44,140 bases of DNA from an uncultured Prochlorococcus sp. (GTDB lineage: Bacteria > Cyanobacteriota > Cyanobacteriia > PCC-6307 > Cyanobiaceae): assembly GCA_902591275.1 (NCBI GenBank), contig CACJAC010000007.1, positions 1 through 44,140 of the forward strand. The letters are read 5' to 3'. Within the stretch, counting starts at the first letter, position 1. Each line of letters opens with the position of its first letter. The notes under the pieces are model-generated. The model worked only from the letters and a program-made list of their open reading frames with translations, had not been told where the DNA came from and did not search any database. Shown piece by piece: positions 9,256 through 39,038 of the stretch. The translations under genes and the position numbers were made by a program.

Positions 9256-9324
9256 CAGACGCTTTTACAAAGGGTCTGTAATCTGGCAAAATATCTAATC
9301 GCGTAGGTCTGAAAATATCAGACC
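9256..9324 (+). promoter_or_regulatory. Two hairpins between atpB and atpE with interchangeable arms
   Basis: Hairpin 1 (9256-9278): CAGAC-G-CTTT / AAAG-G-GTCTG with a 3-base loop and one G-G mismatch. Hairpin 2 (9306-9324): GGTCTGA / TCAGACC with a 5-base loop. Arms CAGAC and GTCTG recur in both, so arms of hairpin 1 could pair with those of hairpin 2 instead. Neither has a T-run. Likely roles are mRNA processing or protection of the c-subunit message; this is inference. Confidence 0.5.
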
Positions 9325-9384
9325 CATTCTTAAAGTAAAGGATGTCCAAGCGTGTATGACAACAAAGATTATCACAAGTATTAA

Positions 9385-32117: not shown

Positions 32118-32364
32118 ATCAATAGGTTTTTGAAAAAAATAGTTGTTAGTCGCATGATTTGCTAGTCAAAGTGAAAATTTACAGAGTGATCTGCGCAATT
32201 AATAACTATAAATTTATTATCCATCAAATATAATATTTTGAAAGGGAGACAGATGGTATGTGGTAAATAGTATTGGTGTTGCATACATAAGTCCTAAATC
32301 CAGACTTTTTATTTTTGGAATAATTGACAGTTGGTCTAAAATTGGAATGGTAATTAAGTCTTAA

Positions 32365-32460
32365 ATGATTGGAAGTTTACCAAAATTAATTGCACTTCTT
32401 ATGGTCTTGCTTCTTGTAGGAAGTACTTTTGTAGGTGGGATTTTTTACTTTCTAAAATGA
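32365..32460 (+). CDS. 31-aa single-span membrane peptide
   Basis: ATG at 32365 to TGA at 32460: starts MIGSLPKLIALLMV and ends GGIFYFLK. One membrane helix with a basic C-terminal end. Its stop overlaps the ATG of the next gene (ATGA), which argues that it is translated. A damaged paralogue exists on minus at 39547-39635, sharing KLIALL, LVGS and IFYF. Family not recognised. Confidence 0.65.
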   Translation: MIGSLPKLIALLMVLLLVGSTFVGGIFYFLK

Positions 32461-32645
32461 TGGCGAATACAGATCAGAAAACAATATTGCTTGAGCAAGC
32501 TTATGAGGAAGTTAAGGTCATTTGCACGAAGTTTCAAGATCAATCAGGAGCTACAGATATGGAGGTGAAAACCTTACTAAGAGAACTTGCTAGGGTTTGG
32601 GAAAAAAATATTGATGAAGATCATGACATAGATTGGGAAGTTTAA
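32457..32645 (+). CDS. 62-aa acidic protein coupled to the membrane peptide
   Basis: 62 residues (MMANTDQKTILLEQAYEE...), predicted helical, strongly acidic C-terminus (NIDEDHDIDWEV). Its ATG overlaps the stop of the 31-aa membrane peptide by 4 bases, so the two form a mini-operon; a peripheral partner of the membrane peptide is possible. Its stop overlaps that of the convergent DUF1651-like gene. Confidence 0.65.
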   Translation: MMANTDQKTILLEQAYEEVKVICTKFQDQSGATDMEVKTLLRELARVWEKNIDEDHDIDWEV

Positions 32646-36150: not shown

Positions 36151-36366
36151 CTAAAAATAAGGTGTATATGGTACTTCTGTTTTTAATGAATCTCCGTAGT
36201 AACTTTCAGCTGACTTAACTAAGATCCAATAAATAAAATTCAGAAATGATTTTTCCATAGGAATATCTATACCCTTTCCTAATTCAAATAAGAATTTCAA
36301 ATAAAAACATCGTAGAAAATACTTAACTGCAGAGATTAAGATTTTCTTAGTTATGCTAAGTGCTAT
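36151..36366 (-). CDS. SAES-x-YG-x-S family small protein, copy A (start uncertain)
   Basis: The frame from ATG at 36258 encodes 35 residues (MEKSFLNFIYWILVKSAES...), but it continues open upstream with protein-like sequence (KKILISAVKYFLRCFYLKF) to an ATA at 36366 that overlaps the stop of the preceding mini-gene (ATAG). The longer reading gives 71 residues and aligns over its length with copy B at 38098-38336. Three possibilities: a non-AUG start at ATA, the TTG at 36300, or a lost start with residual translation from 36258. Function unknown. Confidence 0.5.
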   Translation of the reverse strand: MALSITKKILISAVKYFLRCFYLKFLFELGKGIDIPMEKSFLNFIYWILVKSAESYYGDSLKTEVPYTPYF

Positions 36367-36497
36367 TGTTCATTTAATTTATCTGCATATTCTCTTAAAA
36401 TCTCAGCTATCTTTTGAGGTGGAATTTCTTGTTGATATTCACTACATAAATAAAAAAATTTATCTAAGAAATCTTTCTTTGAAGAGGATATAAAAAT
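36363..36497 (-). CDS. 44-aa mini-gene with apparent ATT start
   Basis: The frame reads SSSKKDFLDKFFYLCSEY, then QQEIPPQKIAEILREYADKL, clearly protein-like and helical. No ATG, GTG or TTG opens it: the first possible initiator is ATT at 36497, which overlaps the stop of the 31-aa gene as TAATT, just where TAATG would be expected. An alternative is a lost C in the CCC run near 36501-36503, which would once have fused it in frame with MKP of the preceding gene. Confidence 0.4.
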   Translation of the reverse strand: MFISSSKKDFLDKFFYLCSEYQQEIPPQKIAEILREYADKLNEQ

Positions 36498-36592
36498 TAG
36501 GGTTTCATTTTAAAAATAAAGTATGCAAACCCACCAAGCAATAAAAAACTCACAACCCCATAAGTAATCGCTATGCCGTATGTGGATGTCAT
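36497..36592 (-). CDS. 31-aa membrane mini-protein of the minus-strand micro-operon
   Basis: ATG at 36592 to TAA at 36497: MTSTYGIAITYGVVSFLLLG, then GFAYFIFKMKP. One membrane span with a basic end. Its ATG overlaps the stop of the 46-aa gene (ATGA). No family recognised; size and topology resemble photosystem or cytochrome b6f small subunits without matching any I know. Confidence 0.6.
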   Translation of the reverse strand: MTSTYGIAITYGVVSFLLLGGFAYFIFKMKP

Positions 36593-36729
36593 TTATTTAT
36601 AAATACATAAGCAGAATATAAATAAACTAAGAAAACTCCAATAGCTAAGGAACTTACATAAATAAGAAAGTTCCAAAATTTATTTAGTTTAGGTTTTTTA
36701 AATTCTTTTTCTTCTTCTTTAATAATCAT
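36589..36729 (-). CDS. 46-aa membrane mini-protein of the micro-operon
   Basis: ATG at 36729 to TGA at 36589. A charged N-terminus (MIIKEEEKEFKKPKLNKFW) and one membrane span (LIYVSSLAIGVFLVYLYSAY). Both ends overlap neighbours by 4 bases (ATGA), a layout that supports real coupled translation. Unknown function. Confidence 0.62.
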   Translation of the reverse strand: MIIKEEEKEFKKPKLNKFWNFLIYVSSLAIGVFLVYLYSAYVFINK

Positions 36730-36842
36730 TTATTTTCTTTTTCTTTTCTGGCAGCATTACCTTTTGCTCTTAATACCAAAGTTATAATAAGGGCAGTGCT
36801 TAATATCACAGCATCAATTAATAGGTGCGGGGAAATATTCAT
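36726..36842 (-). CDS. 38-aa membrane mini-protein of the micro-operon
   Basis: ATG at 36842 to TGA at 36726. MNISPHLLIDAVILSTALII forms one span, followed by a highly basic tail (LRAKGNAARKEKENK). Start overlaps a 19-codon frame (TAATG), stop overlaps the 46-aa gene (ATGA). No independent Shine-Dalgarno, consistent with coupling. Confidence 0.58.
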   Translation of the reverse strand: MNISPHLLIDAVILSTALIITLVLRAKGNAARKEKENK

Positions 36843-36901
36843 TAGCTGAAAAGAGAAATAAGAGGAGTCATTATCTTTTCAGCAATAAACCTATTAATCA
36901 T
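36842..36901 (-). CDS. Possible 19-aa leader peptide of the micro-operon
   Basis: ATG at 36901 to TAA at 36842 (MINRFIAEKIMTPLISLFS). Its stop overlaps the ATG of the 38-aa gene by one base. It begins directly after the T-run of a terminator-like hairpin at 36903-36925, so it could be a leader peptide in an attenuation arrangement, or chance. Confidence 0.35.
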   Translation of the reverse strand: MINRFIAEKIMTPLISLFS

Positions 36902-38097: not shown

Positions 38098-38336
38098 CTA
38101 TGAATTTAAATATTTAGAGCTAAAAAAACTTTTGATTGAATTAGATGGAAATTCTACAGATAAAAATGATTCTCCATAATGAGATTCGGCTGATCTTATT
38201 AGTAACAAGTAAAAGAAATTTACTAAAGCTTTCTCCACGAGGATTTAGTAACTAATTTAAATAAACTCATAATTTTTGTAATAGCAATATACAAAATAAA
38301 TTTATAAGCAATCAAGATATTTATCTCATAAAGCAT
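38098..38336 (-). pseudogene. SAES-x-YG-x-S family, copy B, single-base frameshift
   Basis: From ATG at 38336 the frame reads MLYEINILIAYKFILYIAIT, then KIMSLFKLVTKSS, and stops after seven out-of-family residues. The -1 frame picks up at the same place (GTG at 38238): EKALVNFFYLLLIRSAESHY, then GESFLSVEF to a stop at 38098. Joined, it would be 79 residues in 240 bases; the sequence has 239, i.e. one base lost near 38239. It is homologous to copy A over the full length. The 46-codon part from GTG could still be translated. Confidence 0.6.
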
Positions 38337-38940: not shown

Positions 38941-39038
38941 GTAGTGAATACTACAAAATCGTCCGATCTACCATCTGATAGACCGCAGTACGACTTAAGC
39001 CATAGGACGGGGACTTGAGCAAGTTTAGGAGCTGCATC
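38941..39038 (+). promoter_or_regulatory. Structured 5' leader, candidate riboswitch or attenuator
   Basis: The leader is far more GC-rich than its surroundings. Visible pairing: GTAGT-GAAT-ACTAC at the very 5' end (38941-38954); CGTCC (38960-38964) with GGACG (39005-39009) closing a multi-element loop that contains UCUA/UAGA; ACUU-GAGC-AAGU at about 39013-39024 just before the Shine-Dalgarno AGGAG (39027-39031). UACCAU (38969-38974) is complementary to the start region AUGGUA (39039-39044). No T-run, so control would be translational. It is not the canonical glutamine aptamer: the GACGGAAGUAGG core is missing. Confidence 0.5.

Follow-up and report, generated by a model that had tools for sequence, protein, structure and literature searches.

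The minus strand of the Prochlorococcus stretch analysed here (contig CACJAC010000007.1, 44,140 nucleotides, hereafter the window) carries a chain of four very short frames, namely a 19-codon leader followed by three predicted single-span membrane peptides of 38, 46 and 31 amino acids, in which each stop codon overlaps the next start codon, and both the frames and these overlaps are conserved among relatives. The 19-aa leader and the 31-aa gene, which we call the tail, also attach to other genes, and the chain thus looks more like a mosaic built of reusable parts than like one fixed machine. This swapping of parts is the most interesting result of the present work. We consider it moderately probable, from comparison of sequences, that the chain is a conserved mini-operon read by termination-reinitiation, yielding a leader peptide and three membrane micro-proteins; the putative coupling of the first four frames is well supported, while the reading of an earlier note on this DNA, six subunits of one assembly, is not supported. 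More tentatively, Prochlorococcus may possess a combinatorial mini-gene system, in which a portable leader cassette, made of a repeated 5' element and the 19-aa leader, would load ribosomes onto any short gene placed behind it, and a portable 31-aa tail would be appended by stop-start contact to a dozen genes.

Organization and conservation of the chain

Read directly from the sequence of the minus strand, the leader (MINRFIAEKIMTPLISLFS, 36901-36842), the 38-aa frame (36842-36726), the 46-aa frame (36729-36589) and the 31-aa frame (36592-36497) are joined, in this order, by TAATG, where the leader stop TAA overlaps the next ATG, then by ATGA and again by ATGA. By eye, no Shine-Dalgarno-like sequence lies just upstream of the three internal starts. 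Hydropathy maxima of the 38-, 46- and 31-aa products reach 2.31, 1.97 and 1.92 over a 19-residue span which, together with the purifying selection described below, agrees with the earlier proposal that three consecutive products are intact, predicted single-span membrane peptides.

The 46-aa gene found matches in 25 of the 60 genomes of the "relatives" set (own genome counted, and one, G031, only weak) and in 60 of 400 family genomes, 58 of them in the genus of the window and the other two weak. Of the 299 genomes of the order, 99 had a match to the 38-aa gene; 92 of them belong to the genus, and the other seven, with weak matches, to another genus. Relatives of the 38-aa protein were encoded on 154 stretches of the named genome collection; the 80 kept of these bear Prochlorococcus titles, except for two "Synechococcaceae" cells and one Crocinitomicaceae-titled MAG, the latter probably mislabelled. 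Loci chosen for holding the 38- or the 46-aa gene numbered 163 as fetched and 117 when distinct, and 114, window included, once three with an unclear 38-aa match had been dropped.

Among these 114 loci, the junction between the leader and the 38-aa gene is a one-nucleotide overlap in 92, with ATG as start codon in 83 of them. Seven further loci have lost the first stop (to TTA in five) and show an ATGA overlap, so that the next in-frame stop still overlaps the ATG of the 38-aa gene. The junction from 38 to 46 is ATGA in 92 loci, has another spacing in nine, and an intact 46-aa ORF is missing in 13; downstream of the 46-aa gene, the corresponding counts are 81 for ATGA, 12 for TAATG, four for other spacings and 17 for none. 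The complete 19-38-46-31 set, in which the starts are ATG and each of the three junctions overlaps, was found in 63 of the 114 loci, the 38-46-31 series with both ATGA overlaps in 73, and a 19-38-46-DUF1651 arrangement in six. The cultured strain MIT 9107 (L106) is among those that carry the chain intact. The most constant part is the 38-46 pair (101/114); at least seven loci hold the 38-aa gene without the 46-aa gene (L092, L097, L101, L112, L131, L134, L143). The gene that follows the 46-aa gene is the 31-aa gene in most genomes and a DUF1651 gene in others: the 12 TAATG cases, which include a genome of 1,657,990 bp, lead into a 78-aa protein, one copy of which was tested and belongs to DUF1651 (PF07864, E 4.7e-13). 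Alignment of the locus across Prochlorococcus relatives, proposed earlier as a check, thus found the first four frames conserved and their three junctions kept as stop/start overlaps of 4 or 1 nt.

Selection on the frames

Substitutions were counted on a tree of 85 loci, restricted to those with intact 38- and 46-aa genes, of which 68 served for the 31-aa frame and 69 for the leader. Constraint was clear in the three membrane frames, with 142 synonymous and 85 nonsynonymous changes in the 38-aa frame (ratio 0.21, P 2e-31), 100 and 131 in the 46-aa frame (ratio 0.31, P 8e-17), and 100 and 129 in the 31-aa frame (ratio 0.37, P 7e-13). Shifted forward frames of the same genes gave ratios of 0.73-1.76, with a single weak synonymous excess, in frame 1 of the 46-aa gene (P 0.034). 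Pairwise ratios of 0.13, 0.24 and 0.32 for the 38-, 46- and 31-aa frames agree with the tree; one reverse-strand frame of each also fell below 0.5 in the pairwise comparison, as is usual where codon positions line up. The 38-, 46- and 31-aa frames are therefore coding and under purifying selection, and the overlaps are maintained while third positions change.

The leader showed no such signature on the same tree, with 22 synonymous and 101 nonsynonymous changes (ratio 1.24, P 0.84; 0.76 pairwise), an ATG missing in 7 of 79 loci and an internal stop in 4 of 79. The chain-loci tree thus suggested a non-coding leader, which is countered by comparison of distant versions, or module groups, of the 19-aa sequence: in-frame pN/pS was 0.20-0.46, against 0.63-3.18 in shifted frames, apart from one shifted comparison at 0.43, level with its in-frame value of 0.44. 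The 19-codon frame probably encodes a genuine short peptide, under relaxed constraint in the clade of the window; this assignment is less secure than that of the three membrane frames.

A reused leader and its repeated 5' element

Upstream of the leader lies a repeated element of about 45 nt (36945-36907, minus strand), composed of a box, TTGACATTCGATCTAAA (36945-36929), and a hairpin with the stem AGAGG/CCTCT at 36925-36907; a U-run then leads to the ATG at 36901. Each of eight genomes contains 7-17 copies of the box (TTGACAGTCGATCTAAA, at most two mismatches) and 0-1 of the reversed pattern. Outside the chain, 69 of 92 copies are followed by an ATG at 35-54 nt from the box start (at 41-48 nt in 65 of them), 59 of these 69 ATGs open an ORF of at least 25 codons, and a five-T run is present in 63 of the 92. 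Of 91 copies outside the chain, 49 have a hairpin (shuffle mean 8.4, maximum 18), as do 44 of the 57 copies in the chain (shuffle mean 5.2, maximum 11), and its stems vary on both sides (AAGGAGC/GCTCCTT, AAGAAGC/GCTTCTT, AGAGGG/CCCTCT, AGGGGG/CCCCCT). An ORF of at least 40 codons ends within 25 nt upstream of the box in 14 of 45 cases, compared with 22 of 225 random positions. The element may act as a promoter joined to the terminator of the upstream gene, as an attenuator leader or as a recombination repeat. A promoter placed just upstream of the box is not supported: among 47 cluster representatives, a -10-like TANNNT hexamer ends 4-11 nt ahead of the box in 16, with no enrichment over shuffles (14.3 +/- 3.1). 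The copy in the window had no Rfam match at gathering score, and a permissive scan of the locus gave scores far below it. A "48-bp island repeat" was reportedly described by Coleman in 2006.

Matches to the 19-aa leader sequence were found in 45 of 61 genus genomes and, in 28 of the 30 leader places that were read, the element lies at most 120 nt upstream (at most four mismatches). In 21 of these 30 places, window included, the leader is followed by the 38-aa gene. Elsewhere, the leader end meets or overlaps the start codons of other genes: the 31-aa tail in two places (L324 and, by sequence, L326), membrane-like proteins of 101 aa (L302) and 204 aa (L307), and a mini-frame starting MKRLL (L303). 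Four places have no gene in contact with the leader (L304, L308, L318, L321).

Several further observations concern the element. It heads many short genes (L164, L174, L192, L194, L195, L197 and others), of which one was tested and is a DUF3764 gene. In the 1,657,990-bp genome, copies cluster at 358-360 kb and 1,347-1,365 kb, in places about 350 bp apart. Some copies (L169 16506 +, L180 1501 +, L191 527 +, L198 1270 -) appear, by eye, to face the 3' end of a convergent gene and not an ATG, as if used there as terminators. The window also contains a second chain of like design on the plus strand (32324-32645), where an element copy with two mismatches precedes a 31-codon membrane-like ORF (32365-32460, MIGSLPKLIALLMVLLLVGSTFVGGIFYFLK) that runs by ATGA into a 62-codon ORF (32457-32645).

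The tail gene, the 38-aa gene and their other partners

The 31-aa gene was matched in 76 of 101 genus genomes, and 18 of these 76 gave two or more matches. Forty tail places were fetched, two of which are chain copies, and ten more were added, giving 48 places outside the chain; 43 of these have a start and at least 25 aa. A head ORF of at least 19 codons ended between -4 and +5 nt of the tail start in 25 of the 43, two of these assignments being weak (L213, L229), compared with 38 of 151 control short ORFs from the same stretches, in counts where many places are homologous to each other and thus not independent events. By this test 18 of the 43 are headless. A 129-aa protein, which is DUF3804 in the copy tested (L223), ends about 22 nt upstream of headless tails in L223, L227, L239, L241, L242 and L296, and also in L238, whose tail lacks a start codon.

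About twelve kinds of head were recognized in two genera, counting the 46-aa head of the chain; they differ by eye and may still be distantly akin. They comprise a 34-aa coiled-coil-like peptide (junction GTGA; also L099, L108, L128), the 19-aa leader (TAAGTG), an 82-aa DUF1651-like protein (19.2 bits in Pfam, under the 22-bit cut-off), and proteins of 37, 95, 33-43, 127, 89 (gap 4) and 61 aa (gap 2). In a second genus, the heads are a Nif11-like protein, so named by eye, and a 38-40-aa membrane peptide, both joined by TAATG. A 10-13-codon frame starting MK[RQ][LF]L also recurs, by eye, directly 5' of tails or right behind the 19-aa leader (L213, L222, L244, L303).

The 38-aa gene likewise has relatives in the second genus, where MDINYHLLIDIVLVSGALSFVLIARKLKK was read in six loci, one of them in a genome of 1,842,899 bp. 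A 41-aa membrane peptide ends 2 nt upstream of this relative in L285-L288. In L288 the relative runs by ATGA into a 53-aa membrane peptide and then, by an 8-nt overlap, into a 67-aa DUF3104 protein; an open downstream frame is absent from L285 and L287, and L286 has an 8-nt gap. In L284 the relative starts 2 nt past a DnaB_C gene and overlaps a 50-aa ORF, while L283 shows no chain and neither of these two neighbours. A complete overlapped chain was therefore found in one of the six loci, L288.

The tail and the leader thus occur without the other members of the chain, and the 38-aa gene without the 46-aa gene. One alternative explanation is that the peptides share no complex and have landed repeatedly and independently behind genes whose ribosomes they use, the chain being a stable stack of such opportunistic tails. 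The dozen heads and the excess over control ORFs speak for this view, as do the 38-aa relative behind a DnaB_C gene and the two alternative followers of the 46-aa gene. Against it stand the retention of the 38-46 pair in the great majority of loci, purifying selection on all three membrane frames in chain order, and the partial homology of the counted loci, so that there were fewer separate landings than the counts suggest. We judge this explanation rather unlikely. The same data bear on the earlier claim of co-translated subunits of one small membrane assembly: the overlaps are conserved and suited to co-translation, but the case for a single assembly is weaker, since the parts recombine: there are two followers of the 46-aa gene, many heads of the tail and several other genes behind the leader. 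Module swapping calls for caution about one fixed complex.

Chance and genome compaction

Overlaps could also result simply from the loss of intergenic bases in a streamlined, AT-rich genome, with no role in translation. The window has a GC content of 31% and, in 200 windows simulated with a first-order Markov model (ATG-started ORFs of 18-80 codons joined by ATGA or T[AG]ATG), short chains arose readily: 10.2 two-ORF chains were expected per simulated window, compared with 8 in the real one, and chains of at least three ORFs were present in 55 of the 200. Chains of at least four ORFs were nevertheless rare, at 0.025 per simulated window (5/200), compared with one in the real window. Pairs in the real window are not in excess. 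Compaction is further opposed by the persistence of the overlaps despite third-position changes, by apparently non-coding stretches that adjoin the chain (by eye), and by the figures in an excerpt of PMC6728339, where overlapping pairs make up less than 10% in cyanobacteria and near 15% in most groups. As the sole explanation, it appears improbable.

Proposed expression of the chain

The abstract of PMC10666635 states that overlaps of 4 or 1 nt give translational coupling, that termination-reinitiation needs genes which overlap or lie very close together, and that heteromeric complexes show an enrichment of overlaps; we therefore favour a coupled micro-operon made of a leader and three membrane peptides. 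From a mechanistic point of view, one mRNA would start at or near the repeated 5' element, ribosomes would read the 19-codon leader and stop at the TAA within TAATG, and they would restart at once on the 38-aa frame and then, via ATGA, on the 46- and 31-aa frames. The product would be a roughly matched set of three single-span membrane peptides, with the positive C-end of the 38-aa peptide, the charged N-end of the 46-aa peptide and the positive C-end of the 31-aa peptide probably inside. The three peptides probably cooperate, as small accessory subunits, in a membrane process. The operon would have been assembled from recurring modules (element plus leader, 38-46 core, 31-aa or DUF1651 end), and may sit in a flexible part of the genome that perhaps responds to stress or phage.

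The 4-nt (ATGA) and 1-nt (TAATG/TGATG) overlaps, the shared strand and the tight order are those of the overlapping pairs with termination-reinitiation described in excerpts of PMC6728339 and PMC10666635; the chain differs from such pairs in having four frames in a row, all very short and three of them single-span membrane frames, and in that its members recombine between operons.

The bicistronic-design leaders of synthetic biology are short frames placed ahead of the gene of interest so that their stop overlaps its start codon (TAATG). The 19-codon leader resembles them in its stop overlapping the next start, and differs in being natural, in its conserved 19-aa sequence, in its repeated 5' element and in preceding several different genes. 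Although usual gene calling can miss frames this short, the chain frames are conserved, and so are their junctions. If the combinatorial reading is true, new small operons would arise through shuffling of modules at stop/start junctions, and a natural counterpart of the engineered bicistronic leaders would be at hand. If the module reading holds, it would show concretely how streamlined ocean genomes can build and express new micro-protein operons, and would offer defined leader-head-tail combinations for measuring translational coupling where overlaps are otherwise scarce.

Relation to known families

Searches of Pfam, NCBIfam and PHROG with the 38-, 46- and 31-aa peptides gave no match at E 0.01 or better, the best scores being those of NDUF_B12 for the 46-aa peptide (E 0.019; 15.2 bits, cut-off 22.7) and phrog_33583 for the 38-aa peptide (E 0.017); the DUF1651 profile (PF07864) did not match any of the three. 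In size and in their one predicted membrane span, these peptides are like the small subunits of photosynthetic and respiratory complexes. They differ from them in sequence, as no solved chain scored below E 0.28: the 46- and 38-aa peptides gave weak matches over short aligned stretches, and the 31-aa peptide none. Identity with a known photosystem, cytochrome or NDH small subunit was rejected, as none of the solved chains is related in sequence. A viral origin was likewise rejected for the 46- and 31-aa genes, as viral contigs and phage records contained no relatives of these two. In the literature searched, at the level of titles and abstract openings, no description of the chain or of the repeated element was found.

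The DUF1651 family offers another comparison, since the 46-aa gene of one genome group runs by TAATG into a DUF1651 gene; the window differs in carrying the 31-aa gene in that place. According to an excerpt of PMC5490813, other marine cyanobacterial DUF1651 genes rise during phage infection, among them PMM0684 and PMM0819 of MED4, and part of PMC2518516 places the phage-induced PMM0684-0686 in genomic island 2. We judge the DUF1651 gene of the chain to be probably distinct from PMM0684 and PMM0819, because PMM0856 is counted among peroxiredoxin-type genes in a portion of PMC3441193 and, in the 1,657,990-bp genome, an ORF that looks peroxiredoxin-like by eye is located about 3 kb ahead of the chain.

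Neighbouring genes

The earlier note had extended the chain to six frames, the last two starting with ATT and ATA. Four frames and three overlaps proved real; the fifth and sixth lie outside the chain. Gene 5 (36363-36491, minus strand) is a remnant of 42 codons counted from ATA. In relatives it encodes 41 aa and starts with an ATG located 5 nt past the TAA of gene 4 (TAATTTTTATG), following TAATTTTT, and the window reads ATA at this position. It is often broken among relatives: it was scored as intact (at least 38 codons) in 29 of the 84 loci with a 31-aa or shortened 28-aa gene, which is a minimum, since the scan used the first ATG. Elsewhere, for instance in the 1,657,990-bp genome, relatives of gene 5 sit behind their own copy of the 5' element. 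Gene 6 (36151-36258, minus strand) is a separate 35-aa gene, beginning MEKSFLNFIYWILVKSAESYYGD, with a conserved internal start. Of its 24 copies, counting that of the window, 23 start with ATG and one with GTG. The frame upstream of this start closes within 6-10 codons in 21 of the 24, the exceptions being the window (37), L102 (26) and L109 (30), and the gene lies 0.6-3.6 kb from the 38-aa start where present in the fetched stretch. The ATT and ATA junctions are therefore accidental, and one co-translated set of six, for which the open frames of the window speak, is scarcely credible given the ATG of gene 5 after the stop, its low intact count, and the internal start and distance of gene 6.

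Gene 6 has a paralogue in the window at 38098-38238 (minus strand), both being small proteins with the motif KSAESYYGDS / RSAESHYGES, and many relatives have a copy resembling this paralogue some 1.4 kb ahead of the chain. Downstream of the chain (L002-L016) and of the DUF1651 gene (L018-L024), a conserved stretch (GATCCTTAATCCGTACAA; near reverse complement TTTGTACGGGTTAAGGAAC) was seen by eye, in opposite orientations in the two groups, and possibly represents a non-coding RNA. Two known RNA motifs of the window, a glutamine-II riboswitch (38957-39019, plus strand) and an ATPC RNA motif (9264-9354, plus strand), scored above their Rfam gathering scores.
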